Of a stretch of DNA of 64,000 nucleotides, positions 15,350 to 50,438 are shown piece by piece (the stretch's first letter is position 1; each line of letters opens with the position of its first letter). This stretch comes from Flammulina velutipes (taxonomy: Eukaryota; Basidiomycota; Agaricomycetes; Agaricales; Physalacriaceae): positions 2,046,001 to 2,110,000 of the forward strand of contig CM022373.1 of the NCBI GenBank assembly GCA_011800155.1, in the 5' to 3' direction. A program made the translations under genes and the position numbers. Under the pieces are notes generated by a model. It searched no databases. It was not told the origin of the DNA and was given only the letters and a program-made list of their open reading frames with translations.

Positions 15350-15785
15350 TGTCAAGGACGGAGTCCGGCGTGAACCAAACAACCACCCAAGTCGCAATCG
15401 GACAGAGGACGAGTGAGAGAGAAGCAGAGAATGAAGCGTAAATTGAGTATGAGAGAGCCTAGCTCGATACAGTGCTGGGATATCCGAACAGTGTAGAGAC
15501 GAAGAGGACAAACTAAGGAAATATCTAGAAAGGCCGTGTATATAAATATAAAGTCCGTGGCTGCTACGATGAGCCATGATGATGCAATGATGAGTGAGGC
15601 AATGGTGCAACGATTGCATCATTGCATAACTTTTTACAGTTTGTAAAAAGTTACAGGAGCATGTGATTCCTGGTTAGGGTTACCATATCCGGACCGGTAA
15701 ACACGTGATGATGGAAGAGCGTGGCGAGCTCTCGGGGATGTCGGGGAGCGTAAGGGAGGGAGCAAAATAGAGGCGATTCGTGACA
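15350..15785 (-). repeat. 3' LTR (minus orientation)
   Basis: 436 bp with TGTCA and TGACA ends, the same as 21600-22035. It contains the tail of the pol frame (to 15634) and a TATATTTATATA-like box near 15538-15550 on the minus strand. Confidence 0.95.
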
Positions 15786-18700
15786 ATACCCCCTCTTTAG
15801 GATGCGCTTGCGCCCGGAGCGCAGAAGTACCGGACCAGATGTCTTGCACGGTAAGACCAAGGTTACGAATCGTGGGACGGGGTTTTGAAAACGCCTTGGG
15901 GTACCGGCGATGGAAGTCCTCTATCAACGCCAACACCTTCTCGTTCGTCAACGCTGAACTGGGCTCCCATGTGTTCTCCGATTCCGAATAATCTAACCAT
16001 TTGACCAAATACTGCACACCTCGCTTGTTCCGGGTAGGGCGTGAGTCTAAGATGGCCTCGACATCATAGTCTTCGTCGTCATCTAGAAGCTCGGGTGGCG
16101 CACCCGGGAAGTTGGGTCCATGCGCATCGGTCTCCTTGAATGGGACAAGTAGGGATGCATGGAATACGGGATGAATGCGCCATTTTGGCGGGAGTTTGAG
16201 CCGATAGGTGACTGGACCGAGAACGTCAGTGATTTCGAAGGGACCATGTCGTTTGTTGGCGAGCTTAGCTTTTGGCCGTGTGGTCTTAAGGTTCTTGCCG
16301 TCGAGCAAGACCTTATCGCCAACCTTAAATATCACTCCTTTCCTCGTATCATCACCATTGTTTCTCTTCATCAACTCGGCGGCAGTGGTTAGACTGGCCT
16401 GAACCTCCTCGCGCAGGAGCTGCAGGTTCGCGAGGCGGTCTTCGACCGACGGGATCTTTGAAGTCGGGTTAAGCGAGGGGTAGAAGCGGGGTTGGAAACC
16501 ATGGAGGAGTTCGAAGGGTGACTTGCCCGTCGCGGCGTGGACACGGATGTTGTGGGAGAACTCCGCGTATGGGAGGTACTTCACCCAATCGTCTTGTCGG
16601 TAGTTGCAGAAGACGCGTAAGAACTGTTCAAGCTCTTGGTTGAAGCGTTCGGTCTCGCCATCTGTCTGGGGGTGATACGCGGTACTAAGGGCAGAGGTGA
16701 TACCTAACTTAGCGTGAATAGCCTGCATGACTTTGCTGGCGAACTGGGGTCCCCGGTCGGAGATCATCTTGTCCCAGAGACCGTAGCGTCTGAACGTGTT
16801 GTCAATGAGAATGTCGACGGTCCCATCCGAGTCAATAGTTTTCTTGCACGGAGTGACAATAACGGTCTTGGTGAGACGATCGACGACACAGTGAATGGAG
16901 TCGTAGCCGTCAACTTCTGGGAGGTCGGTGATGAAATCGGTAGTAATCGTGCCAAAAGGACGGTCAGGGATTTCATTGGGGACAAGAGGGACATGGGCGG
17001 GGTGATTATTCGGTTTTGTCAGCTGGCAAGTGGCGCAGCCATCGACATAGTCACGGACAAAGACCGACATGCCCGGCCACCAGAATTCGCGACTCAGTAG
17101 TTCATAGGTTTTGAATCGTCCGGGATGGCCTGGCCCTACAAGGTCGTGGTGCATCTTGACGACGTCTCGACGGAGTTCGAGGTCAGCGGGGACATACACC
17201 TTGCCACGGAAGAGAACGATTCCATCTTCGTAATTCCATTCCTGTAGGTTTTTGACCAGCGAACGCGGACCATTGCGAAGGATAACGTCTAACGCACCGA
17301 CAACCTCAGCGTCCTTCTTTGGACATTCTCGAATACGACGTCTCAACTCAGCATCACCGATCGCCACCACCTCTCCTGGTCTAGTTGCTCGAATTCGGAA
17401 GAACTTGGGGTCTAGGAGTACACGATCGGTGTTGTCGTCCTCGACCCCCTCTTTATGGTCCGCGCGGCGGGATAGTGGGTCACTACGGTTCGAAGTACCA
17501 GGTTTGTGCGTCAACGTAAAGTCAAATCGGGTGAGGAAAAGGGCCCATCGGGCTTGTCGGCGACTCAGCTTTTGCGCATTGGTAAAGTACTCGAGGTTCT
17601 TGTGGTCGGTGATGATATCGACCGGGTGCGTGGCTCCTTCCAAGTAGTGCCGCCAAGCTTCGAGTGCACGGATGATTGCCAATAGCTCCTTGTCATGGAT
17701 GTCGTAGTTGCGCTCGGGTTCTGACAGGGACTTGGACAGAAAGGCGACTGGATGCCACTGCCCGTCCTCGCCGACCTGAGACAGAATGCCTCCGGTGGCG
17801 TAGTCTGAGGCGTCTACTTCAACGCGATACGGCTTTTCAGCATCGGGCATAATAAGGACAGGAGACGAGGTGAACGCATCTTTGAGAGCCTCGAAGGCCG
17901 CTTGACATTCTGGAGACCATACCCAAGGTTGATCCTTCTTGGTGAGATCGAACAGTGGTCGCGCCAACTTGGAGAATCCTTCGATGAACCGTCGGTAGAA
18001 GTTGCCAAAACCCAAAAAGGACTGCACGTCCTTCACGTGCCGTGGGGTTGGCCACTGAACTACGCCGGCGACTTTGACTGGGTCCATGCGGAGAGCGTTG
18101 TGAGAGATGATGAGACCCAGGAATTCGATGGACTCAGCTTCAAACACACATTTCTCCGGCTTAGCATAAAGATCGTGGTCTCGAAGTCGTTTGAGGACCT
18201 GACGTACGAGCTCGCGGTGTTCTTCCAGAGTTTCGGTGAAGATCAGGATATCGTCCATGTAGACGACAACTTTTCCGGAGTCGATAAGATCCTTGAGAAT
18301 GGTATTCATCATTGCTTGAAACGTGGCGGGGGAATTCATAAGACCAAAGAACATCACCAGGGGTTCAAACAGGCCACGGTTCGTTTTGAACGCGCCTTTC
18401 CACTCGTCTCCCTCCTTTATCCGAACATTATTGTAGCCCCAACGTAGGTCGATCTTGGAGAAGACTTTGGCGCCTTTCAGCTTGTCGATAAGCTCGGGAA
18501 TGAGCGGCAGCGGGTACTCGTTCTTGACGGTGCCTTTGTTCAGGTCGCGATAATCCTGTACGGGGCGTAGCTTTCCATCCTTTTTCTTAACAAAGAAGAA
18601 CGGACTTGCCATTGGGGACTTAGATGGGCGAATATAGCCCTTGGCCAGGTTTTCGTCGAGAAAGGCATCGAGTTCCTTCTGTTCTGCAGGCGACAATGGA

Positions 18701-19848
18701 TACGTCTTGCAGGGTTTCGGTTCGAAGCCTGGTTTCAGGTCTATGGCATGGTCCCAAGGACTGCGAGCGGGGAGACGTTCTGAAGTGGTTTTGTCGAACA
18801 CCGTGAGATAGGCATGATAAGGGGAGGGGATGCGTTCAGCGAGTGGTCGAGTGTCGGCTGGCTTTTGGCTAGCCTCAGCGAGCTCTTGGGCTCTGGTGAA
18901 ACCAGCGCGAACGTGAACGAAAGGACTGTCTGAAGAATGTGGATCGCGCACCGGGCGGGGATAATCATCCCGGAATAGCTCTTCAAATACCTCCTCCTCC
19001 CACTCTCTAGGGACTTCTTCTTCATCATCGTCGTTCTCTGTGAAGAGGACAACAGGAATTTGGACTCGGGTGAATGCGCGGACTGCGCGTCGGCGTCCAG
19101 CGACTCGGTGAACAGGTACAGGTTTGAGATTACCCTCTCGATCCTTCCACTGGACCTGGTAGTCTCGGTGGTGAGCGCGAGGGTCATGCGGGGTTCGGGT
19201 CTGGTTAACGAGTGCAGGTGTGCGTTTAGCGTGAGCACGTACATCGGTCACCGGTGGGTTCTTAAGGGTACAGGTATCGGGGCATCGAGTGAAGTCGACA
19301 CGAGTGCCGGCCCAGTCGATCTCGGGGTTGTGTTCGTCAAGCCAATCCGTGCCTAAGATGACATCGTGGTCACCAATATCGGTGACGTAGAGCTCGATGA
19401 GTTCCTCGTGGTAGGATTGGCCATCACGAGAGTAGATGCGCACAAGTTGAACGGTATAGTGGCGCACCCAACCCATGACGTTCTCAGAGCCGTCAACGTT
19501 GCGGACAGGGAATGGTGATGAAAGGGGAATGAGGGTAAAGTGGTGCGCGTTTGCGTACCGGGCATTAATAATGATGCCTTCAGCACCACTATCAACGAGA
19601 GCTTGTGCAACGATTCTTTTGCCAGTAAGTTTGCCAATAAATTCGAGTTCCAGCGTGATTGAGGGTGTCTGTCGGTTGCGGGTGACTGCCGACATCCGAA
19701 GCTCAAAGGGATGAACACGCTCACGAGGATGGGGTGATAATACAGCGAATCGATTGGGTGAACATATGGCAAAATTTCGTACGGCTCCGCCTAACGTTGC
19801 AGTAGGGGAGCACTTTAAAAATCCAATCCAGCAACATCTCTCAAACAC
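15634..19848 (-). CDS. pol: Retrotransposon pol polyprotein with chromodomain
   Basis: The frame is uninterrupted for about 1400 codons. Counting from 19848: aspartic protease with DSG at 86-88; reverse transcriptase about 365-600 with YMDD at 530-533; RNase H about 675-790 (VDASDYATGG, ITDHKNLEYF); integrase zinc finger H-H-C-C about 900-941; integrase core D971, D1031 and E1067 (DD35E spacing); chromodomain about 1260-1312 (YDVEAILDSR ... YLVKWLDYSESENTWEP). The tail runs into the 3' LTR. The frame begins with GTG and overlaps the end of gag by 34 nt, one base back (-1), so it is most likely translated as a gag-pol fusion by frameshifting. All catalytic residues that I checked are present. 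Confidence 0.95.
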   Translation of the reverse strand: MFERCCWIGFLKCSPTATLGGAVRNFAICSPNRFAVLSPHPRERVHPFELRMSAVTRNRQTPSITLELEFIGKLTGKRIVAQALVDSGAEGIIINARYANAHHFTLIPLSSPFPVRNVDGSENVMGWVRHYTVQLVRIYSRDGQSYHEELIELYVTDIGDHDVILGTDWLDEHNPEIDWAGTRVDFTRCPDTCTLKNPPVTDVRAHAKRTPALVNQTRTPHDPRAHHRDYQVQWKDREGNLKPVPVHRVAGRRRAVRAFTRVQIPVVLFTENDDDEEEVPREWEEEVFEELFRDDYPRPVRDPHSSDSPFVHVRAGFTRAQELAEASQKPADTRPLAERIPSPYHAYLTVFDKTTSERLPARSPWDHAIDLKPGFEPKPCKTYPLSPAEQKELDAFLDENLAKGYIRPSKSPMASPFFFVKKKDGKLRPVQDYRDLNKGTVKNEYPLPLIPELIDKLKGAKVFSKIDLRWGYNNVRIKEGDEWKGAFKTNRGLFEPLVMFFGLMNSPATFQAMMNTILKDLIDSGKVVVYMDDILIFTETLEEHRELVRQVLKRLRDHDLYAKPEKCVFEAESIEFLGLIISHNALRMDPVKVAGVVQWPTPRHVKDVQSFLGFGNFYRRFIEGFSKLARPLFDLTKKDQPWVWSPECQAAFEALKDAFTSSPVLIMPDAEKPYRVEVDASDYATGGILSQVGEDGQWHPVAFLSKSLSEPERNYDIHDKELLAIIRALEAWRHYLEGATHPVDIITDHKNLEYFTNAQKLSRRQARWALFLTRFDFTLTHKPGTSNRSDPLSRRADHKEGVEDDNTDRVLLDPKFFRIRATRPGEVVAIGDAELRRRIRECPKKDAEVVGALDVILRNGPRSLVKNLQEWNYEDGIVLFRGKVYVPADLELRRDVVKMHHDLVGPGHPGRFKTYELLSREFWWPGMSVFVRDYVDGCATCQLTKPNNHPAHVPLVPNEIPDRPFGTITTDFITDLPEVDGYDSIHCVVDRLTKTVIVTPCKKTIDSDGTVDILIDNTFRRYGLWDKMISDRGPQFASKVMQAIHAKLGITSALSTAYHPQTDGETERFNQELEQFLRVFCNYRQDDWVKYLPYAEFSHNIRVHAATGKSPFELLHGFQPRFYPSLNPTSKIPSVEDRLANLQLLREEVQASLTTAAELMKRNNGDDTRKGVIFKVGDKVLLDGKNLKTTRPKAKLANKRHGPFEITDVLGPVTYRLKLPPKWRIHPVFHASLLVPFKETDAHGPNFPGAPPELLDDDEDYDVEAILDSRPTRNKRGVQYLVKWLDYSESENTWEPSSALTNEKVLALIEDFHRRYPKAFSKPRPTIRNLGLTVQDIWSGTSALRAQAHPKEGVLSRIASILLPPLRSPTSPRARHALPSSRVYRSGYGNPNQESHAPVTFYKL
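15788..15798 (-). other. Polypurine tract
   Basis: On the minus strand AAAGAGGGGG lies just upstream of the 3' LTR start. This is the expected place and composition for plus-strand DNA priming. Confidence 0.7.
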
Positions 19849-20855
19849 GCGACTGCCTGCTCCTTATCCTCTCCCTGCAGTCCACGAAGAAGGTTAGCCA
19901 CCGCACTGATCTGGGCGATGGCGTTGGTGGAGTCAGTGACGGGGGCGGTGGTGTCAGTGGACGGAGATGACGTGGCCACATCAGTGGCGCGAATGTTGCG
20001 AGTGGATTGAGGGGTTCCAGGAGTGGTACGCGTGGGGCAGTTGCGGGAGATATGCCCGGGGCGGCGACACTTGAAGCAGGCGCCCTGTTGACGAAGGATC
20101 TCGCGGTCCATAGGAGTCAGTCTCGGAACGTGAGGAAAGTTCAAGGATGCACCTGGGCGTCTAGACGCGTCAACGTCCATGGGAACTCCCATATCTGCAG
20201 CCGGGGCTCTAGGGGCGGCAGGAGCGCGGGGAGCGGGAACGTAACCAGGACCTCTCCAATTATTCTTCTCAGCCTTCCGGTTCTCCCATGCATGCTGCAT
20301 CTCGACTGCGCGGGCCTTGTAGTCGTCGAGAGTAGCGGGAGGGGGGTAAGACAGAGCGATGCGATCAACGAGGGAGCTATTGAGGCCCTTCTTGAGGAAA
20401 TAGAGGAGCGAGCTCTCATCGAACTCAGAGTCGTCAGCGTACGAATTGAACTCGGTGAGGAACTTATCAATATCTGAAAACTCCTTCTCTTGACGAAGGG
20501 TCTCAATGGCCGTGCGTGCCACAGTGATGGGGTCAATGGCGGCGAAGTCAGCCTTGAACTTGGCAATAACGCTGGCCAGGGTAGTCCACCTCTTGTTGGC
20601 AGCGAGAATAGTAGTGTCGTCCTGGTCGGCGTCAAATTCCTTCATGCGGCGCTCAGCCCATTTACCACCGAGGTTTCCCCTGAAGCAAGAGAAGAACAGG
20701 GCAACCCGTTCGGAGTCGGTGGGGTATCGGGTGTCGTTGAGGCGCAAGTGATTCCGGAATTGAGCCAGCCATCTAGAGGCAGAGTTACGATCACCGTGGA
20801 ACTCTTCGAGTTTAGCGCCACGTTCGCTTGGGATAGGGGCAGGTGCGTTGGACAT
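19815..20855 (-). CDS. gag: Retrotransposon gag (ATG-initiated part), 346 aa
   Basis: Starts MSNAPAPIPSERGAKLEEF. The capsid-like helical region spans about 15-190 (WLAQFRNHLRLN, FFSCFRGNLGGKWAERR), followed by Pro/Ala linkers and a CCHC zinc knuckle at C260, C263, H268 and C273. It ends at 19815 in a T-rich run (GATTTTTAAA on minus), where a -1 slip would enter pol. The same frame stays open upstream of this ATG to about 21372, without another ATG, and encodes a gag-like segment (GAEVYQSAAWILDPSGEW, DDDRWFIRDNNNVPIYP) and a Ser/Glu/Pro linker. The original gag was therefore probably longer at its N-terminus. Confidence 0.9.
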   Translation of the reverse strand: MSNAPAPIPSERGAKLEEFHGDRNSASRWLAQFRNHLRLNDTRYPTDSERVALFFSCFRGNLGGKWAERRMKEFDADQDDTTILAANKRWTTLASVIAKFKADFAAIDPITVARTAIETLRQEKEFSDIDKFLTEFNSYADDSEFDESSLLYFLKKGLNSSLVDRIALSYPPPATLDDYKARAVEMQHAWENRKAEKNNWRGPGYVPAPRAPAAPRAPAADMGVPMDVDASRRPGASLNFPHVPRLTPMDREILRQQGACFKCRRPGHISRNCPTRTTPGTPQSTRNIRATDVATSSPSTDTTAPVTDSTNAIAQISAVANLLRGLQGEDKEQAVACLRDVAGLDF

Positions 20856-21562
20856 GATGGGGATAGCAGGAATACCAGGGGAAGGTGGACCAGAAGAGGA
20901 AGAAGACGAGGAAGAGGATGAAGATGAGGAGCTGGGAGGTTCTTCGGCCGGTGAAGAGGTTGGTAGCGGTTCCGGGAGACTGGGTTCTGGGGGAAGCTGG
21001 GGTTCGTCCGAGTGATGAGACGATACGGGGGATGCAGGAGCTGGTTCTTGAGTCTGAATGGACTCGGGTTCTTGGGGTTCTGGTGAGGGTACGACTGGTT
21101 CTGGATCTAATGATGACTCAGCTCTTTGCCGTTCTTCAGCGTGTTGACGATCGAGGTATCGATCAAGGCGTCTTTGAGCTTCTGTGAAGTCGAGGGAAGT
21201 GGGATAGATAGGGACGTTGTTATTGTCTCGGATGAACCAGCGATCGTCGTCGTCAAAGAAGAGTTCTCGCCACTCGCCACTGGGGTCGAGGATCCAAGCT
21301 GCGCTTTGATAAACTTCGGCGCCGGGAGGTAACGGAGGGGAGTCTGCGTCGGCTGAGAAGCGCGCGATGGTGCCGGCTTATCAGTGCGTGGGCGAAGCTC
21401 ACGCGGGTAACGGCGACGACGGATTTTGAGATCGGGAGGCAGTAAGCTGAAGTTAACTTCGTCAACTGTTAACGCACGAGGGGAGCTGGTTTTCTTGAGT
21501 CTCAGGCGCGTGGCCCGAGGAGTAAGATCTGGCTTGGTTGTAGAGGTACGGTCGGCGGGCAT
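20856..21562 (-). pseudogene. Gag N-terminal extension, apparently frame-broken
   Basis: An ATG at 21562 opens MPADRTSTTKPDLTP and continues to TDKPAPSRASQP. At about 21370-21380 the gag-like content changes frame, to ARFSADADSPPLPPGAEV, which then stays open into the gag frame at 20855. Related mushroom elements, as I remember them, have these parts in one protein. Either a one-base indel broke the N-terminus or the upstream frame is a separate leader peptide. No splice pair that repairs it was obvious. Confidence 0.5.
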
Positions 21563-21599
21563 GCGCCAAGCGAGGTGGGTGTAGGAGAGTTTGTCCTAG

Positions 21600-22035
21600 T
21601 GTCAAGGACGGAGTCCGGCGTGAACCAAACAACCACCCAAGTCGCAATCGGACAGAGGACGAGTGAGAGAGAAGCAGAGAATGAAGCGTAAATTGAGTAT
21701 GAGAGAGCCTAGCTCGATACAGTGCTGGGATATCCGAACAGTGTAGAGACGAAGAGGACAAACTAAGGAAATATCTAGAAAGGCCGTGTATATAAATATA
21801 AAGTCCGTGGCTGCTACGATGAGCCATGATGATGCAATGATGAGTGAGGCAATGGTGCAACGATTGCATCATTGCATAACTTTTTACAGTTTGTAAAAAG
21901 TTACAGGAGCATGTGATTCCTGGTTAGGGTTACCATATCCGGACCGGTAAACACGTGATGATGGAAGAGCGTGGCGAGCTCTCGGGGATGTCGGGGAGCG
22001 TAAGGGAGGGAGCAAAATAGAGGCGATTCGTGACA
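21600..22035 (-). repeat. 5' LTR (minus orientation)
   Basis: 436 bp, no difference to the 15350-15785 copy by eye. The element's transcript would start here and run away from the gene at 22079. Confidence 0.95.
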
Positions 22036-22040
22036 CTACC
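22036..22040. repeat. Target-site duplication CTACC (right)
   Basis: Matches 15345-15349. Removing the element rejoins a sequence ACCACTACCACTATC that leads into the ATG at 22079. Confidence 0.9.
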
Positions 22041-36295: not shown

Positions 36296-36551
36296 TGGCG
36301 GTCCGGTCCTTGCCAGTTTATGTAGAATGTCTGGAGATATAAATCAAGTTTTGCTGAAGCCAACTTGTACTGCAGCTTCCCTGTATAGTTATATTAGCTC
36401 TATATAGTAGAATTTGATTCCACCTATCTATGTATGCTATATCTGGATCTTTCACAATTGCTGCTAACAGCTGTTTAGTAGGAGTTCGACAGGGCCGGAC
36501 CGCGGCGAACCTCGTGTTTGGATATACAAGATGAAAATCCCCACGCTTCAA
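36296..36551 (-). other. Candidate upstream exon(s)
   Basis: Two readable pieces on minus: MKRGDFHLVYPNTRFAAVRP (from 36551) and LQYKLASAKLDLYLQTFYIN (ending in NWQGPDRQCRSENGM before a GTAAGC donor near 36275). They may be 5' exons of the gene at 35291 or remnants of a separate gene; the phases that I tried do not join them. Confidence 0.3.
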
Positions 36552-36554
36552 TAA

Positions 36555-36990
36555 CTATACAGAGTGCTTGCTCTCATCGTCCCAACCATGCGGGAACTTG
36601 GTAGCGAACAGATGGGGCAGCCTCAAGACGATCCAACACCCCACAGTGGGGAACGGCAACCCCAAGTATGATTTCAGCCATATGAACTGCTCCGAGTCAG
36701 AATCGTTTTATTTATTTAAAAAAAGCTATGTTGCAGCGACACACCTTCGGAAGGGCCTGGTAGACTCGTACACTTGAAGCACCATATCATGAGCGTCACC
36801 AAGTTGATTTTCTTGAGTCTTTCAACTAATTCCTCCTCCTCAACGCGCTTGGGTATCAGGAATAGGGCGACGAGGTGGACGATTTGGACAATGAGGTCGA
36901 GTTCTTGGACGACAATGAACGACGTGTATAGTATTTTGTCCAGTGCGAAAATTGTTGTCAAGCCATTAAAAAACTGGTCTAAGTACGACG
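36555..36990 (-). pseudogene. Decayed tandem copy of the membrane protein at 37037
   Basis: The copy matches the neighbour over ILYT-FI-Q-LDLI-QI-HLVAL, then EEEELVERLKKINLVTLMIW and CFKCTSLPGPSEG, the following intron and the last exon down to a stop at 36555. The first third of the protein is missing. In the last exon one extra base (VPHCG instead of VPIAG) shifts the frame, so the C-terminus is lost. Confidence 0.75.
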
Positions 36991-37036
36991 TCACAAAGAT
37001 ACCGTATGTACAAGAGTAGTTCCGTCTCCACGATGA

Positions 37037-37555
37037 CTAGACAGAATGCTTGCTGTCCTCATCCCAACCGTTCGGGTACTTGGTGGCGAACAGATGTGGC
37101 AGCCTCAAAACGATCCAACAGCCCGCAATGGGAACGGCACACCCGACGATGATTTCAGCTATGTGAACTGCTCCGAGTCAGTATAAAAATAATCTATGTC
37201 GCAAGCGACACACACCTTCGGGAGGGCCTGGAAGATTGGTACATTTGAAACACCATATCATCAGCGTCACCAAGTTGAATTTCTTGAGTCTTTCGACTAT
37301 TTCCTCCTCTTCCTCTCGCTTGGGTAACAGGGCGACGAGATGGGCAATTTGGAGAATGAGGTCGATTGCTTGGATGAAAATGAACGCCGTGTACAGTATC
37401 CCATACCATTCTGTCCCACCCACTATCAGGGGCATGGCGATGAAGAACGCCATGACGGGGACCAGAAAGGAAGAGGATAGAATAGTGACAAAGGCAATGA
37501 CTCGTTTGCGTGAAAATGGCTGGTCCACGGGCTCCTTGTAAACGGTAAGTGCCAT
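37037..37555 (-). CDS. Small multi-pass membrane protein, 156 aa
   Basis: Two exons: 37555-37216 and 37167-37037, intron 48 nt, phase 1, 471 nt. Hydrophobic stretches at about residues 17-45 (VIAFVTILSSSFLVPVMAFF), 50-80 (WYGILYTAFIFIQAIDLILQ), about 96-105 (NLVTLMIWCF) and 115-137 (HIAEIIVGCAVPIAGCWIVL) suggest three or four membrane passes, with a charged KREEEEEIVERLKK loop. The last residues are LFATKYPNGWDEDSKHSV. No family recognised. A partial tandem copy lies directly downstream. Confidence 0.7.
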
Positions 37556-39955: not shown

Positions 39956-40297
39956 GACAGATGGTGGTGGAAAATAAAAGAGCAATGTCACGTGATATGA
40001 TTCTTACTGAGCGCTGACTGTTGCGCACTTAAGAACTACTTGTCTACGTAGTGTAGCTAATTTAGTTATGCCTGTGCTCGAGACTCTGATATCTTCATTC
40101 GTTCCGTGCTCCTGAGGTATGTCTGAATCCTGACCCAGATTCTTCATTCCCGCCTCAACGGCAGTCTAATGCTTTGACAATGAAATAGGGAACGATCAAA
40201 AGAGTATTTACATTCAACCTTGAATATTAGTTCGGAACATGTGTGTGCCTTGCAGCGGGAGAAAGCGAAGCATGGGCAAGGGTTTGTCGCTGTCCGT

Positions 40298-40473
40298 TGC
40301 CTCACAAAGTCGCATCGAAACAAGATGAACGCGTTCCGAGGGCGCGGGACATGCGTGGCAGAGCGTTTCCGGGCGTGAGATTTCTTTGGTGGCGATGAGC
40401 TATCCGACGACAGAGAGAGTAAAGACGGGATAGGGAGGCGGCCAGTGAATGGGGGCGCCGGTCTGTCTTTCAT
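40298..40473 (-). pseudogene. 5' fragment of HMG-box gene
   Basis: Starts MKDRPAPPFTGRLPIPSLLS and runs to RPRNAFILFRCDFVRQ with near identity to the gene at 49447. It then leaves homology at the arm end, in the first helix of the HMG box, so most of the DNA-binding domain is missing. Confidence 0.85.
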
Positions 40474-41523
40474 CACCGCCGAAGGAAACTATAACACAAG
40501 TCGAGAACGAAAGAGAGGAAAAGTCCAAGTCTTTCCTCGTAGTCGTGATTGTGTCTATATAACACGTCGGGATCCAAACATCCAGCTCTTAAGGAAAAGA
40601 CAGAACATGCGGCGGATCAAGGGAAGCCCATGAAAGAGCTTTGAAGCGAGTCGATCACCTCTCCGGCAGATACAAAGACATTGCAGTCACATTTACGGAA
40701 AGGCCAGACGCCGTCACCGAGGATGTCAAGATGTCCAAGCTGTAGCTAGCATCAAGTCAAAGCTCAACGTGTACCAGTGAGTGAACGTTGACAGTGCATA
40801 GGGACAATGCAAGCCATAGCCCATGGCTGTCTGCGCCTCCGGTGCGCCTCGTGGGTAACATGCACTGCCATTCTTCCTTTGTGTGATTTTTGGATGTGAA
40901 TAGTAACAGGGATACGATCCACGAGGTGAATACAGCGAGGGTGCGTTCAGGAGATGGCTGTATATCAAGAGCGTTCTTTGATGACGCTTGTGGCGTATAG
41001 AACGTAATGATAGCCGCAGAGTGAAGTTTCCGGTTTTCAAAGACGAATGTGGCGCACAGAAGAGTCAACGCCAATAGTCAAGCTGTGAATCATGAGTGAC
41101 TGTCTGGATATACCGACCACGACTTGGCATTGAGCATTGCGCGCGGCATGATCTGAAAGAGAGTTATCAGCTTACGCTCTGTTAGAATCGATGCTTCCTT
41201 TTGGAGTGCCTTGGGTTGGTCGCGGAGAACTGGCTTTATGAATGATCGTCGGCGACAGCTTTGTCACTTTGTTGGTGGTATGCGCAAGACTATCTCGTAG
41301 ACACATTCCTATAAATTACTGGGCTGAATGAGCGAGCTGAGCTCGTGGTAATTGTTAGGAAGACGCACGGTGGAAATCTAGGAGCTGTTCGATTTGGCCA
41401 TAGTCTGAAGCTTGACGTATGTATGAACTTGAACTGGTAGCAATCAATGTATAGAGCTCGAGGATTCGTTGAAGTAGGAATGGTGGTGGTGGGAAACAAG
41501 CTACCGGCCCGCCATTCCGCTTC

Positions 41524-42387
41524 ATGACCACCAACGTCCTTCTGCTTCGTGGTCCCGGCGGCTCTCCAGACAAATACGAGGCTGCATTCTCTGAAAAACA
41601 ATATGAACCAGTGTCAATCCCAGTTCTGGAGACGGTCCTTACCAACGTTGCCCAGCTTTCCAAGTTGATTCGCACAGAGTCTGCTCGCTTTGCTGGCATT
41701 GTTATCACCAGTGCGCGTGCCTGCGAAGCGCTCGGGAAGGCTTTCGATGGAGATTTTCCAAGTTGGAAGTCACCTTTCTACGTTGTCGGCAAAGGAACTG
41801 CTGCTGCACTGCGTCAGGTCTTTCCAGATGCGGACATTCGTGGAGAAGACTCTGGAAATGCAGTACCGCTTGGCCGGTTCATCCTGGATGACTTGGGCAC
41901 CTCACTCAACAGAAATCTACTCTATCTGACTGGAGACAAAAACCGCGACACCCTTCCTTCCATCCTCACCCCATCCTTCACATTGACGTCTCTGCAAGTT
42001 TACAAAACAACCGGTTCTCCGGAATTCCCCCACCAACTGGAAGCGTTGAAATCCACAGGTGAAAAAAGTCTTATTCTTGTCCAATACATCTAATGATCAA
42101 ATAGGTAAATGGTGGATCGTCTTTTTTGCACCCTCTGCTGCCGATTTCGTCTGGCCATATCTGCAAGCACACTTTCAGACAGAGCTCACGTCGATAGCAG
42201 CAATAGGGCCCACAACGGCCGACTTTCTGGCAGCCAACCTCGGCCTGCATGTTCATGTAACTGCGCCGAAACCCACTCCTCGGGATTTGGTAGAAGCCAT
42301 AGTGCAGTTTGAGGTAAGGCTATACTGTCTGCAAATCCCCCACTAATGTGCGACCAGAATAATGGCCATCGACATGAGCACGTGTAA
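41524..42387 (+). CDS. HEM4: Uroporphyrinogen-III synthase (left copy), 257 aa
   Basis: Exons 41524-42058, 42105-42313 and 42358-42387; introns of 46 and 44 nt with correct phases (774 nt). Family pattern: VLLLRGPGG at the start, SIPVLETVLTNVAQL, GIVITSARACEALGKAF, YVVGKGTAAALR, LLYLTGDKNRDTLPSIL, VYKTTGSPEF, WWIVFFAPSAADFVWPYLQ and IAAIGPTTADFLAANLGL. The enzyme closes and isomerises hydroxymethylbilane to uroporphyrinogen III in heme synthesis (cytosol). The last exon adds only NNGHRHEHV, and its stop overlaps the possible start of the kinase gene at 42362. A second complete copy is at 47515-48378. Both seem translatable. Confidence 0.85.
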
Positions 42388-44601
42388 AAGTGGTTTATTG
42401 TTGTCCTGGATTCAAAAGCACAATGCCACCTGGTCTTGTTTTCTCCCTTTCACCATGTTCGACGGTGCCCCAAGGTGGACAGATCATGCTCGCAACTTTA
42501 CAAAGAAACTGCGAGGCTATCAGGTCGATATCAATCCTCCAGAATTCATTTCTCTCGTCTTAGGCGCGCCTCCCGATTGGGAAACCACCTGGAGCCAAGA
42601 AATTTCCCTCATTCGCGAGGACCCAGAGTTCGCAGACCTCGTCGGCATGTGCCAACGCTTCGACAAGGTTGACTATGACGGAACCAACGAGGACGACAGA
42701 TGCGCCTTCAATTATCTTCTCAACACAATGTTTGGCCGGGTTCGACAACTCGATCACAGAAAGGGAAAGGTGGATCCGCAGGCCGTGAGGGGAATCCTGC
42801 ATGGGTTGAAACGGGGACGTGGAAGAGATAACGTGGAGACACCCAAAACCAAAAGGCGTCGAACGACATCTACACCAACGAGCCCCGACGCGCCGAATCG
42901 ACAATCCACTTCTCTCCATCTGCCTTCCGCCCATTCATCGGTCCCTCTTGATCCTATTTTCCGCTCTGTGTGGGATGGTATCGAACGCGCCGTCGATCCT
43001 TTGCGCTCTCACCACACCTGGATTTGCGTCTTCCCCTGCTTCCTTCGCCTCATCTATCAAGACCATTCTGTCCAGCTCACATCGCGATCTTTCAGCCTCA
43101 ATTTCGGCAGGACAGATGGGTCGGACCTAGACGTCTTCATCGCCGCATTAATCGCCTTCCACCGACGCCCACCTACGCTGAATGGACTGCTATCCCTCAT
43201 TGATCACAAACAATGCAAACAGGTTTTGGCTGGGCAATTCTCCGTTATGCAGGATGATCATTCCGATGCTGTTGAAGGCCTGAGATTGCATCTCACGAAG
43301 GGTGGAAAGCCGTTGATAGTGACGCTGGGCAAGTCGATTTACCGTGATACCCAGCCAGTAGGACGCTCGACGTGCGTCGTGCACGCAACCTCGTCGGAAT
43401 GGCCGAATAGGCCCATCGCCGTCAAGATACAGTTCACGCCGAAGAACGCACCACACACGGAAAACGCGTTTATCGATACTGCAAGACGGAAAGCGAAGGA
43501 AACGGGGTCGACATGGGTCCTCGATCATTTGCCTAATATTCTACATGTGCAGGAGGTGGGGAGGAACGACGAGACGGAGCGCAGAGTTGCGGAGTATATC
43601 GAGGCGTGGGCTGAGAATGGATTTGCGCATCCCAAGAGCCAGGCTGTACAACCGATGGTCATGAAGGTGCTGATCGAAGAGGTGTTATTTCCGATAGAGA
43701 CAGTTCCGAGCCTGCGGCAGTTGGGGCAGGTGTTTGTGGACATCTTTGAATGTTAGTCTTTATGTGATTCTCTGTGAACTGTTCACTTAACATATCTTCT
43801 ACAGGCCATAGGTGGCTGTACAAAGAAGCCGGCATCCTGCATCGAGATATCAGCCCCGAGAACATCATGTATCGCATCAATGCGGACGGCGAGGTCTGCG
43901 GTGTCATGAACGATTTTGACGTCGCCTGCTTTCTTCGAGACATGGACGACGGCATCATTGTACCCTCATACCTGGCATTCGCTGGCGCGCCCCTCTATGT
44001 CGCTTTGGAACGAACGGAACCTCGAGACGAGGACTGTCACCTCTACCGACACGATTTGGAATCCCTGCTCTTTGTGATGCACCTCTTCATGGCCGAACAC
44101 AGGTTCATGGCTGACGGCGAGTGTGATATGTTGATATTGGGTCTGCCACAACGATTCGTACCAGTGGATGTTACACCGTTTTGGGAGTGGCATAGGACCG
44201 AAGATGACGAAGAGTTGAAGGGGATGTATCATAAGAGCCGCGCGAGCTCGATTCACGACTTTTCAGATACATTTCGTCTTGATCCTGGTTATGCTGAGTG
44301 GGTCGATGGGTGGCGGAGGCTCTTTTCGGACGGGATTGAGGAGCGGAGGAAATGGCATCGATGGTTAGAAATAAAGGAAAGGATGCAGACTATACGTGAG
44401 GAATGTCTTGCATTGGAGGGATGGCCCAGGCGAGTCTATCCGAGAACCTTGGAAGAAGTGGATGGCATTCTGGCGGCGGTTAATAGGGAGGAGATGGACT
44501 TCGATGAGGAGACGCTTAACGGACATATTACTTTTGATCGCTTTTTGTGGGTTATTCAGAACCTCGATGGTGACCTTAAGGAATTGAAGACAAGAATGTG
44601 A
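42362..44601 (+). CDS. FunK1-type fungal protein kinase, 697-728 aa
   Basis: Exons from 42362 (or ATG 42455, MFDGAPRWTDHARNF, better context) to 43751, and 43805-44601; intron 53 nt, phase 1. The N-terminal half has a helical region, a basic KTKRRRTTS linker and an N-lobe-like part (RPIAVKIQFTPK). After the intron, AGILHRDISPENIMY (HRD loop), VMNDFDVACFL (DFD in place of DFG), GAPLYVALE and HLYRHDLESLLFVM match the FunK1 family, which is expanded in multicellular basidiomycetes. The first 350 bp lie inside the inverted duplication, so the right arm holds a fragment of this gene. Substrates of FunK1 kinases are unknown. Confidence 0.85.
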
Positions 44602-44755
44602 ATCCGACCACTCTGTTACTTATATATATTGAATCCTATACGGATGTTCGGCCTACGTTGCTTAGTATCATTGAGAAAACATATATCTCATCGTAGCTAC
44701 AGCGAGGCGAACACAAACAAGACTTGAAAATTGATAGTAATACATGGGTACTGGT

Positions 44756-45989
44756 TTAATTCATATGCGAGTACTGTGCATGCCATTCCCTGTGGCATTT
44801 ACCGCTGATACACAGCCCCGTCTTAAAACGTTTGAACCTGTCTGACATGAAGTCAATACTCATAGACGGAGTCGTGAAATTGATCGCGTTAAGATTAGCA
44901 CCAGGGCGATATCTGAGGAAGTTAAACATCGACGGTTGTCGTTTGTAAGATGGATCGAAGACGCCATTTCCGTTTCGAAACATGTCCAGGAATGCTTTGG
45001 GATCAACTAGAAGAGTTCAACACATGTACAATCGAGGTGTTCTAGTACTCACTGATATCATAATCTGGCACAGTCGAGCTTGTCAATGAGGTTCAGATTG
45101 TACGCGTTCGTGATGGGGTTAATGACATCTCCCCAGAGAATAGCCTCTGCGATATACCCAGACTCTCCACTTCCAGTCTGTTCATAGTGACCCATGGTTT
45201 TAAGGTACTGTTTATTCTCAGGTGTGAGGTGACCTGCGTGTCTACGGGCCGAAATGACATGAGAAAGCTCATGGTAGATCGTACTGAGGAAAAGAAGGGC
45301 CGGGTAGTAGACTGAGGGCGCTTGGTTGCCGTGATATTGGAAGATATCCACAGAAGCTTCTACCTGGTCGGCCAAATTAAAGCTGTCGGAATCCAGATAA
45401 CATCACTTTCTTCTGGCAAAGATTGAAAGCATAGCACGAATCCTACACCTCCTACAGTGCTGATATTACCGTTGAAGAGACATATGGTAGGGAATGGAGA
45501 TAGTAAGAGTCTTCGGATCTCGTCATCCTCAAGCGAAGAAAGGGATGGACCGGTCTGGGAACTGACAGCGTGATCGATAAGCGCTGCTACGGGCGCGCGG
45601 TTGGTACCAGAACCATCAACGAGGTTGATCTTGTAGATCCTTCGCATCATAGGGGAATCTCTGAGACCATCATGGATCATGAGAATGATCCTGGCTAGCC
45701 GGACGTATTGTCTCCTTGTATATGCAGGTGCAGGTCGTCTAGTCTGGGAAGCATAAGCGGAGGACATTGAAGGGCCTGGCTGTGGTATCCCTTGGTGGCT
45801 GTGAGAGGCACTTGCTGCTGTTGTGCATGGTTCATCGGAGGTTAAAACGATAGATAAATTTGACTGACCTGTCCCAGGAAACTGATCATATACATGCAGC
45901 GTCCAGTCGAGTCTGAGTCTATCAATGAAGCTTGGAATTGGTTGATGATGAGAGGGATTGTTCAAAGGGAAGTGAGGGGGAAATGCCAT
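44756..45989 (-). pseudogene. HELSH-motif (metallopeptidase-like) gene, frame-broken
   Basis: Start MAFPPHFPLNNPSHHQPIP. The first long exon ends PLPEESDVIWI near 45385; the homologous-looking content continues in another frame (DSFNLADQVEASVDIFQYHG) without room for an intron. LSTIYHELSHVISARRHAG contains HExxH, the zinc site of many metallopeptidases. After GESGYIAEAILWGDVINP a second frame change is needed near 45080 to reach the last exon (FLDMFRNGNGVFDPSYKRQP ... HREWHAQYSHMN). Two breaks suggest a pseudogene. It is probably related to the convergent gene at 46252, which has HDTGH at the same relative place. Confidence 0.5.
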
Positions 45990-46251
45990 GCTGTGAGTGA
46001 GGTGCCAACATCTCTTGCTAGGCTGTTAAATCGTTTCTTGGGTTAACAGCTATTTCGAACAGTGATACTCATCATATAACGAAGGCTGTACGCATGAGAG
46101 AACATGTCAACGTTCTTCGTGCTGTAGCTATTGTACATCTTGAGACGGAGCCGAGGCTTGATTCTTGATTCTCCTAAACAAGTAGTATTCTCACGCTCAT
46201 CTGACTGCGGTTCTCATCAGTCCCGGGTAATTAACTGTGGCTAGTACAGTC

Positions 46252-47144
46252 ATGTCCTCTCCAGATTGGCCGTCAGATTTGAACACAGCACTCTTCATCT
46301 ACCGGGAACTGTGCGTTCTCTTCACCGAAATGCGCTACCTTCCCCCAAATCTCGAGGGATTAGCTCCGGAAGGCAGCCCGCCAAACATCGTGGCAAGATA
46401 CTTCACGTCGAAATGCTTTCCTTGGTTCAATACATGTCCTCCAATCATCTACCGGGAGGATATCGCTCTGAGAGGTGCTCCCTACATTGCTCTTATCGAT
46501 CGCTACCTCGTCAATCTTGCCTTCGACCCTGCAAGCCTCAGAGAGTCCCCAACGAATGGGACCTACCTACTCCTCGTTATTTTGATGGTACATGATACCG
46601 GACACGTCGCTAGCGCACAGCTACTTCCCGCGGACGAGTGTGCTCCGAGAGCATTCAAATGCCCTGCGGATCTACCTGGAGACGATCCGGGAGATATCAT
46701 GGAGAGGTCGTTTTTTGGTGGCGTTATGTCCGTCGTCTGCCGAGATGAAGCTGATGTGCAGCATCTGACGAGAGCTGACATACTTCACTTCATAATGACT
46801 ACAAGAGAAGGCCAGCGCTATCACATCGGTATGGTGCTTTCTCTCGCCTACGATTAATGCTCACTTTATTAGGTCATGATGTGGCGAGACGCTGGATTTT
46901 AGAGGGCGACTATAAGCCGATTCCCTTGGATTGGTTATCTCCCGCCGAAGGGGATGTACCTCTTCCAAACGAGTATCCGTGTGCAAGGTTTAACAGCTCT
47001 GTTTACTCAACCGATCGGTTCAAATTGCCACAGTGCCCGATTGGTGCTCCGACTTGGAGACACGTAAACAGGAAGCATATCCTTGTGTGTGGTAGGTCCG
47101 GTCTCTTGGAGGCGCTATCATCCGACTCCTTTGCGCCAGCCTAG
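46252..47144 (+). CDS. Hypothetical protein with degenerate HExxH (HDTGH), 282 aa
   Basis: Exons 46252-46828 and 46873-47144, intron 44 nt, phase 1, 849 nt. Start MSSPDWPSDLNTALF. A hydrophobic strand and helix LLLVILMVHDTGHVASAQLL resembles the LSTIYHELSHVISARR helix of the gene at 44756, but the catalytic Glu is replaced by Asp, so peptidase activity is doubtful. The C-terminal part (MERSFFGGVMSVVC, DYKPIPLDWLSPAEGDVPLP) matches nothing I know. No signal peptide seen. It lies in the spacer of the inverted duplication and ends 58 bp before the right arm. Confidence 0.6.
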
Positions 47145-47201
47145 CTGACGTGCTAGCATAATAACACGTGTATTGATTAACTATGTACATGTTCTTGAGA
47201 G

Positions 47202-47540
47202 TCTATCATCCTCGTTGGTTCCGTCATAGTCAACCTTGTCGAAGCGTTGGCACATGCCGACGAGGTCTGCGAACTCTGGGTCCTCGCGAATGAGGGAAAT
47301 TTCTTGGCTCCAGGTGGTTTCCCAATCGGGAGGCGCGCCTAAGACGAGAGAGATGAATTCTGGTGGATTGATATCGACCTGATAGCCTCGCAGTTTCTTT
47401 GTAAAGTTGCGAGCATGATCTGTCCACCTTGGGGCACCGTCGAACATGGTGAAAGGGAGAAAACAAGACCAGGTGGCATTGTGCTTTTGAATCCAGGACA
47501 ACAATAAACCACTTTTACACGTGCTCATGTCGATGGCCAT
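47202..47540 (-). pseudogene. 5' fragment of the FunK1 kinase
   Basis: Matches the first ~110 codons of the gene at 42362 almost perfectly (MFDGAPRWTDHARNF to KVDYDGTNEDDR) and then stops at the arm end. No kinase domain. Confidence 0.85.
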
Positions 47541-48378
47541 TATTCTGGTCGCACATTAGTGGGGGATCTGCAGACAGTATAGCCTTACCTCAAACTGCAC
47601 TATGGCTTCTACCAAATCCCGAGGAGTGGGTTTCGGCGCAGTTACATGAACATGCAGGCCGAGGTTGGCTGCCAGAAAGTCGGCCGTTGTGGGCCCTATT
47701 GCTGCTATCGACGTGAGCTCTGTCTGAAAGTGTGCTTGCAGATATGGCCAGACGAAATCGGCAGCAGAGGGTGCAAAAAAGACGATCCACCATTTACCTA
47801 TTTGATCATTAGATGTATTGGACAAGAATAAGACTTTTTTCACCTGTGGATTTCAACGCTTCCAGTTGGTGGGGGAATTCCGGAGAACCGGTTGTTTTGT
47901 AAACTTGCAGAGACGTCAATGTGAAGGATGGGGTGAGGATGGAAGGAAGGGTGTCGCGGTTTTTGTCTCCAGTCAGATAGAGTAGATTTCTGTTGAGTGA
48001 GGTGCCCAAGTCGTCCAGGATGAACTGGCCAAGCGGCACTGCGTTCCCAGAATCCTCTCCACGAACAACCGCATCCGGGAAGACGTGGCGCAACGCAGCA
48101 GCTGTTCCTTTGCCGACAACGTAGAAAGGTGACTTCCAAGTTGGAAAATGTCCTTCGAAAGCCTTCCCGAGCGCTTCGCAGGCACGCGCACTGGTGATAA
48201 CAATGCCAGCAAAGCGAGCAGACTCTGTACGAATCAACTTGGAAAGCTGGGCAACGTTGGTAAGGACAGTCTCCAGCACTGGTATTGACACTGGTGCATA
48301 TTTGTTTCCAGAGAATGCAGCCTCGTATTTGTCTGGAGAGCCGCCGGGACCACGAAGCAGAAGGATGTTGGTGGTCAT
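47515..48378 (-). CDS. HEM4: Uroporphyrinogen-III synthase (right copy), 257 aa
   Basis: Exons 48378-47844, 47797-47589 and 47544-47515, the exact mirror of the left copy, again 774 nt without breaks. Differences from the left copy are concentrated in the first ~125 residues (for example SGNKYAP for SEKQYEP, DAVVRGED for DADIRGED); from FILDDLGTSLNRN onward the two proteins are the same. It is divergent from the intact HMG-box gene. With both copies open, selection seems to have kept the two frames (inference). Confidence 0.85.
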
Positions 48379-48696
48379 GAAGCGGAATGGCGGGCCGGTA
48401 GCTTGTTTCCCACCACCACCATTCCTACTTCAACGAATCCTCGAGCTCTATACATTGATTGCTACCAGTTCAAGTTCATACATACGTCAAGCTTCAGACT
48501 ATGGCCAAATCGAACAGCTCCTAGATTTCCACCGTGCGTCTTCCTAACAACTACTACGAGCTCAGCTCATTCATTCGGCCCAGTAATTTTATGTGAATGC
48601 GTCTGGTGACGAGATAGTCTTGCGCAAACCACCAACCCAGTGCCGAAGCTGTCGCCGATGATCATTCATTAACCCAGTTCTCCGCGAGCAACCTAA

Positions 48697-49159
48697 ATGG
48701 CGCTCCAAAAGGAAGCATCGGCTCTGACAGATCTAAATGTAAGTTGATTATTCTCTCTTTCTGACCAGGCCGCGCGCAGTGCTCAATGCCAAGTCGTGGC
48801 TGCCATATCCAGACAGTCACTCATGATTCACAGCTTGACTGTTGGTGTCGACTCTTCTGTGCGCCACGCTCGACTTTGGATCCCGAAAATTTCACCATGA
48901 AGGCATCATTACGTTGTCTACGCCACAAGAGTTATCGAAGACCGCTCTTGATATACAGCCATCTCCTGAACGCACCCTCGCTGTATTCACCTCGTGGATC
49001 GTATCCCTGACACCATTCACATCCAAAAAACACACAAAGGAAGGACGGCAGTGCATGTTACCCACGAGGCGCACCGGAGGCGCAGACAGCCATGGGCTAT
49101 GGCTTGCATTGTCCCTATGCACTGTCAACGTTCACTCACTGATACACGTTGAGCTTTGA
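48697..49159 (+). other. Conserved non-annotated stretch in both arms
   Basis: Between the UROS and HMG genes both arms keep readable stretches, for example ALDIQPSPERTLAVFTSWIV and QCMLPTRRTGGADSHGLWLA. An ATG at 48697 with a nearby GTAAGT...CAG intron is also present. No single exon chain could be made, and the left arm has changes at the first ATG. It may be an unrecognised gene or shared promoter DNA. Confidence 0.3.
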
Positions 49160-49446
49160 CTTGATGCTAGCTGCAGCTTGGACATCTTGACATCCTCGGT
49201 GACGGCGTCTGGCCATTCCGTCAACGTGACTGCGATGTCTTTGTGCTCGGGGAGATTCTATCCACTCGCTTCAAAGCTCTTTCATGTTCATGGTTGCCCT
49301 GATCCGCATGTTCTGCATTTTCCTTATATCAGAGCTGTATGCTTGGATCCCGACGTGTTATATACGCACAATCACGGCCACGAGGACAAACTTGGACTTT
49401 TCCTCTCTTTCGTTCTCGACTTGTGTTATAGTTTCCTTCGGCGGTG

Positions 49447-50438
49447 ATGAAAGACAGACCGGTGCCCCCATTCACTGGCCGCCTCCCTATCCCGTCTTTA
49501 CTCTCTCTGTCGTCGGATAGCTCATCGCCACCAAAGAAATCTCATGCCCGGAAACGCTCTGCCACGCATGTCCCGCGTCCTCGGAACGCGTTCATCTTGT
49601 TTCGATGCGACTTTGTGAGGCAGCAGATGGTGCCAAGGGAGGTGGAGAAAGATCATAGGAATCTGAGTCGGATTGCGGGCATAGTGTGGAAAGAGATGAG
49701 TCCGGAGCAGAGGGCGCCGTGGGTGATGATGGCTCAAAGGGAGAAGAGGGAGCATGCTGAGAGGTATCCCACATATCGCTACAAGCCGGATCCGCTACTC
49801 GACGAGGGTGTCGAGAGGGTTGCGAGGGGCAGGGAGAAGAGGCGCAAAGAAGCGCGGGAGGGCGTCGTAGGAGAAAGGACTCCACCACCGCACAGTTCCC
49901 TCACCTACACCCTACCTGGCCGTCGATCTTCTTCCTGTCCGCCACCCGGCTCTGCCCCAGTAGTCGACCCCGCCCCCGCCATCCACGATCTTAGCTTCGA
50001 GCTTCCGCGACGCCCAAGCAGTGTCATGTTCTTTCATTCAATTCAACCAGAATCATCGGTTTTCCATTCCAGTAACGAGGCATGGACGTGGAATCAGCCA
50101 GCGACCGACGCTAGTCAGTGGACGTGGAATCAGAGCCAGCCGTTGACGTATGATCACTGGAGTTTGCCTGCGTCTGTACCTGCCTTCGTACCGTATCCCT
50201 ACTCGCCTGTAGAGCCTCAAAGCCAATATGCTCCCAGGGTACGCTCTCTTCTTTTCTTTCCATTCTAGTAACTGATTGATTGCAGGCGCTTACTGGACTC
50301 CCATATCCTGAGACATGGTACGATGCGTCGCCGTCGTCAGTTCTTGAGAAACCTGCCTTTGTCAATCCGTTCTCGACACCCAGCATGGGGGATGGGTACA
50401 ACAGTGTGCCAAGTGTCTCGCCATTGGAGAGGTTTTAG
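49447..50438 (+). CDS. HMG-box DNA-binding protein, 314 aa
   Basis: Exons 49447-50238 and 50286-50438, intron 47 nt, phase 0, 945 nt. HMG box (MATA/SOX type) at about residues 43-115: RPRNAFILFRCDFVR, then HRNLSRIAGIVWKEMSPEQR and APWVMMAQREKREHAERYP, with the expected N-terminal PRPxNAFILFR core and Tyr-Lys-Pro end. Basic KRRKEAREG follows, and the rest is Pro/Ser/Trp-rich (WTWNQPATDASQWTWNQSQP), likely activation or disordered. Such proteins are sequence-specific minor-groove binders; in basidiomycetes they regulate mating and fruiting among other things. The 5' end is duplicated at 40298-40473. Confidence 0.85.

Follow-up and report, generated by a model that had tools for sequence, protein, structure and literature searches.

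How could a rearrangement cut two neighbouring genes and yet leave a whole copy of each at the same locus? This question is raised by a large inverted repeat in the window, that is, the whole stretch of 64,000 nucleotides that was analysed. The anatomy of the repeat, the distribution of the differences between its arms and the public proteins that match its junctions have to be considered together in order to answer it.

Arms, flanks and genes of the inverted repeat

It had been proposed that two arms of about 2.4 kb face each other across 4.5 kb, and repeat finding, a DNA search of the own genome and a self-BLAST of the window all agree on this arrangement:

40298..42700, plus strand: left arm, with the 5' part of an HMG-box gene (on the minus strand), the shared upstream region of the HMG and uroporphyrinogen-III synthase (UROS) genes, the complete UROS gene and the 5' part of a kinase gene
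42701..47201: spacer of 4,501 bp, with the remainder of the complete kinase gene and two more predicted genes
47202..49622, minus strand: right arm, an inverted copy of the left arm

By self-BLAST the window contains a single inverted pair, namely the two arms (40298-42700 against 49622-47202, 93.6% identity, E=0); the other three of the four pairs at E≤1e-3 are direct. Global alignment of the arms from end to end gave 94.6% identity over 2,399 aligned positions with 26 gap columns, and the mismatches consist of 79 transitions and 51 transversions. The arm ends of this alignment agree with the ends first noted and with those of the self-BLAST. The repeat finder resolves the inverted repeat into four collinear blocks, the outermost of which extends 14 bases further (40284/49636), an extension that is unsupported by the alignment. 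In the genome searched (38,124,235 bases on 23 contigs) the arm sequence is found at two places, with 100% and 94% identity. The rearrangement is genuine: the arms are related, yet they differ at 130 sites.

To the left of the left arm lies a gene for a RIO-domain kinase on the minus strand, whose predicted start codon is 343 bp away from the arm. These 343 bp as well as the 2,378 bp to the right of the right arm have only self-matches in the genome, and the spacer also matches only itself genome-wide except for ∼150 bp of the kinase, which are 72% identical to two other kinases. The flanks and the spacer look single-copy, a result that is not absolute as the DNA search skips very common words. 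These matches bear out the view that the borders carry no visible transposon ends. An inverted duplication mediated by a transposon was rejected since no repeated sequence was found in the arms, the spacer or the flanks.

The two further genes of the spacer (45058-45989, minus strand; 46237-46857, plus strand) are diverging and have no Pfam match at E≤0.1. In one of them the sequence HELSH is similar, on visual inspection, to a metallopeptidase motif. Compared with each other, the two spacer proteins gave a best E of 0.24, which is not significant, and a minus-strand self-comparison of the spacer, which would reveal an older inverted structure inside it, gave no match at E≤1.

Other repeated sequences were observed elsewhere in the window. 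Positions 15350-22040 hold an LTR retrotransposon, by eye of the Ty3/gypsy type, with direct terminal repeats of 441 bp that are 99.8% identical and with minus-strand open reading frames of 1,404 and 346 aa, which we read as pol-like and gag-like; the element looks young. By self-BLAST, adjacent direct copies of ∼380 bp (81% identical) lie at 36551-37399 and short tandem copies of ∼95 bp (76% identical) at 4252-4444.

The genes within and at the ends of the arms are as follows, with introns predicted from the sequence:

40144..40473, minus strand: truncated HMG-box gene, 60 HMG residues followed by a chimeric tail from the left flank
41524..42387, plus strand: UROS copy L, 257 aa, introns 42059-42104 and 42314-42357
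42458..44601, plus strand: complete FunK1-type kinase gene, intron 43752-43804, 5' end in the arm and the rest in the spacer
47181..47444, minus strand: truncated kinase gene, the arm part followed by a short tail of spacer sequence
47515..48378, minus strand: UROS copy R, 257 aa, 12 amino-acid differences to copy L
49447..50438, plus strand: complete HMG-box gene, one intron 50239-50285

The original prediction had placed the left end of the repeat within an HMG box and the inner end within a kinase gene, and both placements proved correct. In the right HMG protein the Pfam HMG_box domain occupies residues 44-112, and the left copy departs from this reading after residue 60, that is, within the box; the 110-aa chimeric open reading frame of the left copy has no Pfam match at E≤0.01. 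At the inner end, the left kinase comprises 697 aa with the intron removed and matches Pkinase_fungal with 73 bits, whereas the frame of the right copy exits the kinase at the arm end and reaches a stop 7 codons on. The HMG gene is intact on the right only, where it runs complete into the right flank, and the kinase gene is intact on the left only. The truncations are thus opposite: each arm leads into the intact rest of a different gene, and each has one gene complete that is a fragment in the other arm, as had been suggested.

UROS is the only gene that is complete in both arms. Both copies match HEM4 over its length, with 116 bits (L) and 110 bits (R), and genome-wide UROS was found at these two places only. 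For codons 1-122 a comparison of L with R yields dN 0.045 and dS 0.207 (NG86), values which, for a short stretch, would be consistent with constraint on both copies. In an alignment of 16 sequences copy R deviates at one nearly invariant column (I105V). Among the best 120 of 343 matches, the best named relative is the protein of Cylindrobasidium torrendii with 58% identity, followed by UROS of Armillaria and Pleurotus with ∼50%, which suggests that the genome belongs near the mushroom-forming Agaricales. When viral contigs were scanned with the UROS alignment, 34 pattern matches were obtained and none was confirmed.

Divergence of the arms and sequences at the junctions

The identical stretches between the arms are longer than expected from a uniform distribution of the differences. 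In 20,000 shuffles of the 139 differences the longest identical run reached a maximum of 235 bp, compared to the 444 bp observed, and the observed runs of 444, 203, 184, 143, and 95 bp were each equalled in none of the uniform shuffles; the sixth-longest run was equalled in one of the 20,000. Successive segments diverge by 1.3% (40298-40530), 16.3%, 4.4%, 12.8%, 0.4% (41352-41593), 9.5%, and 0.4% (41890-42693), where the limits of segments and tracts were set after inspecting the data. Two tracts are nearly identical:

41890..42693, plus strand: near-identical tract, 3 of 804 positions differ; spans introns, intergenic sequence and synonymous sites; candidate gene-conversion tract
41352..41593, plus strand: second near-identical tract, 1 of 242 positions differs; mainly the UROS upstream region

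The reduction in divergence is local and concerns sites free of coding constraint. Noncoding differences amount to 93 of 871 positions in 40477-41351 versus 1 of 331 further in, and the UROS copies have 16 synonymous differences per 93 sites in codons 1-122 versus 0 per 101 sites in codons 123-257. We rejected the idea that coding constraint produced the identical tracts, as the identity extends to introns, intergenic sequence and synonymous sites. The truncated pieces of the HMG and kinase genes also sit in low-divergence segments, and as each of these genes is fragmentary in one of the arms, this likewise speaks against constraint. Gene conversion between the arms appears to be the simplest reading of this mosaic, and we infer conversion here as opposed to allelic recombination.

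According to the alignment, inspected by eye, a single base (T) is shared at the outer junction and no base at the inner one. Such a near absence of shared bases is expected for end joining without long homology. As a protein probe for the inner junction we used the open reading frame that ends the right-arm kinase fragment, which gave two matches. The protein P0130 (117 aa, ENA source, encoded on a contig of 2,061 bases) is 94% identical to the kinase fragment over its first 90 residues; then three residues are missing and the frame changes. Over the next 27 residues 20 are identical to the right-arm frame versus 12 to the left-arm frame. Its last 7 residues are past the junction, in spacer sequence, where all seven are identical, and the stop is at the same point. 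Another public sequence therefore appears to carry the same junction of arm and spacer within a decaying gene fragment, and this would argue for sharing of the junction with another strain or species. The junction in P0130 is compatible with either orientation of the spacer. At the left outer junction a protein probe had 8 matches, HMG-box proteins that cover at most 52% of the query and none of which spans the junction, so that independent support exists for just one of the two new junctions. The protein P0129 matches the start of the kinase (window 47286-47540) over 85 residues with 99% identity; its last 14 residues have no convincing match in the window.

Another public protein bears on the age of the duplication. 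P0001 has 2 differences to UROS copy L and 12 to copy R (counted by eye). As P0001 is closer to L than R is, the split between L and R seems to predate that between L and P0001.

Origin of the arrangement

We suggest with moderate confidence that a single inversion of the spacer together with an arm, with duplication of a breakpoint, was followed by patchy gene conversion; we infer both the ancestral order and the single event. The anatomy itself implies that an inversion took place and that duplication alone does not suffice, since the arms are cut at opposite ends. A simple inserted copy without a flip was rejected: it predicts a copy cut at both ends together with a whole donor, and here each arm has one cut. 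In fact, reversing an inversion of spacer plus arm yields an order in which both genes are whole, and this is the only such single-copy order that was found.

The ancestral order would have been the RIO-family kinase, the two spacer genes, the FunK1 kinase, UROS and HMG, with the spacer in the orientation opposite to that of today. A first break would have separated the RIO gene from the spacer. The second would have been spread across 2.4 kb, from inside the kinase gene to inside the HMG gene, either by staggered breaks on the two strands or sister chromatids or because the template was switched twice during repair. When the ends were rejoined around the reversed spacer, the 2.4 kb would have remained at each end of the inverted segment. 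With this stretch present twice, the HMG gene and the kinase gene would each have kept one intact copy, and UROS alone would have been doubled. Afterwards the arms would have exchanged sequence patchwise by gene conversion.

Inversions with duplicated breakpoints were reportedly described by Ranz et al. in 2007. In the available parts of the literature on such duplications (PMC7584159, PMC12368964), as at our locus with its presumed reversal, single-copy DNA is duplicated in inverted orientation beside a reversed segment without a transposon, and the duplicate keeps the genes at the breakpoint intact. Following the same excerpts, the two models of staggering are not distinguishable from the pattern of duplication. 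These inversions are, in the excerpts, known from Drosophila and other animals; in contrast, the segment here is only ∼7 kb long, a third of it is duplicated and its inversion is presumed.

An inserted copy truncated at both ends would, after a flip, lead to the same end state, and so would template switching. This genome has a large family of such kinases (116 matches), and we compared 30 loci with each other, 28 of the 30 given kinase loci and two 10-kb stretches. Six non-overlapping pairs on the same contig share stretches of more than 300 bp with an identity of at least 80%; three of these pairs are inverted and three direct. As half of these kinase duplications are inverted, local inverted duplication arises in this genome without evidence of inversion. 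One inverted pair of FunK1-type kinases is found on contig C5 at ∼570.7-574.6 kb and 640.8-644.6 kb (L040, L041); its arms of ∼3.9 kb are 93.6% identical and lie ∼70 kb apart, with weaker collinear pieces in addition. Thus, inverted duplication is not unique to the locus in the window, and what sets the pair described here apart is only the small size of its spacer and the fact that its truncations are opposite.

A close rival to the single inversion is a history in two steps, which we regard as possible with some reservation: a 2.4-kb copy cut at both ends would have been inserted in inverted orientation 4.5 kb away, and a crossover between the arms would then have flipped the spacer. The end state would be identical, with the truncations distributed to opposite arms; the mosaic makes the arms look mutually recombining; and other kinases of the genome show inverted local duplications. 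A fungal precedent has also been published, as in the MAT locus of Sclerotinia sclerotiorum, according to the available part of the report (PMC3574095), a partial gene copy in inverse orientation forms repeats of 250 bp which mediate a 3.6-kb inversion and for which a history of this kind was proposed. At both fungal loci part of a gene gave rise to an inverted repeat without transposon sequence, the segment between the repeats is of similar size and the rearrangement truncates a gene. The excerpt also states that the 250-bp repeats are identical and that both orientations segregate in each generation, whereas the arms here measure 2.4 kb with 94.6% identity, the locus is as far as tested not a mating locus and a single orientation is known. 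On the other side, two events are required instead of one, and no second orientation is seen in the one assembly, the junction in P0130 fitting either.

It is unlikely that the arms are still active and that recombination would repeatedly flip the 4.5-kb spacer as in Sclerotinia. Inverted repeats do flank an invertible segment, but the arms are not fully homogenised and near-identical tracts are present in parts only.

The mosaic itself might have formed without conversion between the arms if the duplication were recent and the divergent patches had entered one arm by recombination with a divergent allele. Mushroom-forming fungi have high allelic diversity, which favours this reading, and allelic recombination would likewise give abrupt transitions between ∼0.4% and ∼13-16% divergence. 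Nevertheless, we consider such a history rather improbable, as P0001 groups with L and not with R in the divergent patch and as P0130 carries the junction plus an in-frame deletion and a frame change, so that the structure does not look recent. We retain inter-arm conversion after a single inversion as our preferred reading.

Finally, an assembly artefact, for example, a fold-back chimera or misjoined haplotypes, is very improbable, as the arms are separated by 130 substitutions and several indels, their two sides continue into different unique sequence and P0130, which stems from a separate source, crosses the inner junction; the structure originally predicted withstands this objection.

Relation to known systems and meaning

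The locus is a fresh example of an already known type of event. It resembles the inverted segmental duplications of the Anopheles gambiae inversion 2Rj, for which the available part of the report (PMC1952172) describes arms of several kb around a spacer of ∼4 kb and ascribes the similarity of the arms to gene conversion or recency. There the arms are more than 99% identical and repetitive in the genome, whereas here only two copies were found. A literature search for inverted duplication together with breakpoints in mushrooms gave work on mitochondrial genomes only, which is no proof of absence.

By itself, the locus leaves established views unchanged. It offers a compact case in which a small inversion would have cut two genes and lost neither, because the broken stretch was copied on both sides. 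As gene-sized inverted arms seem to be overwritten patchwise, the divergence between such copies is a poor clock. If the spacer were indeed flipped repeatedly, strains or meiotic products would differ in the UROS copy that lies upstream of the intact kinase, with the genes whole either way, and the locus would be a cryptic and nearly cost-free genomic switch outside a mating locus. Arms that still recombine would also make the locus a natural assay of how inversion and conversion proceed in a mushroom-forming fungus.
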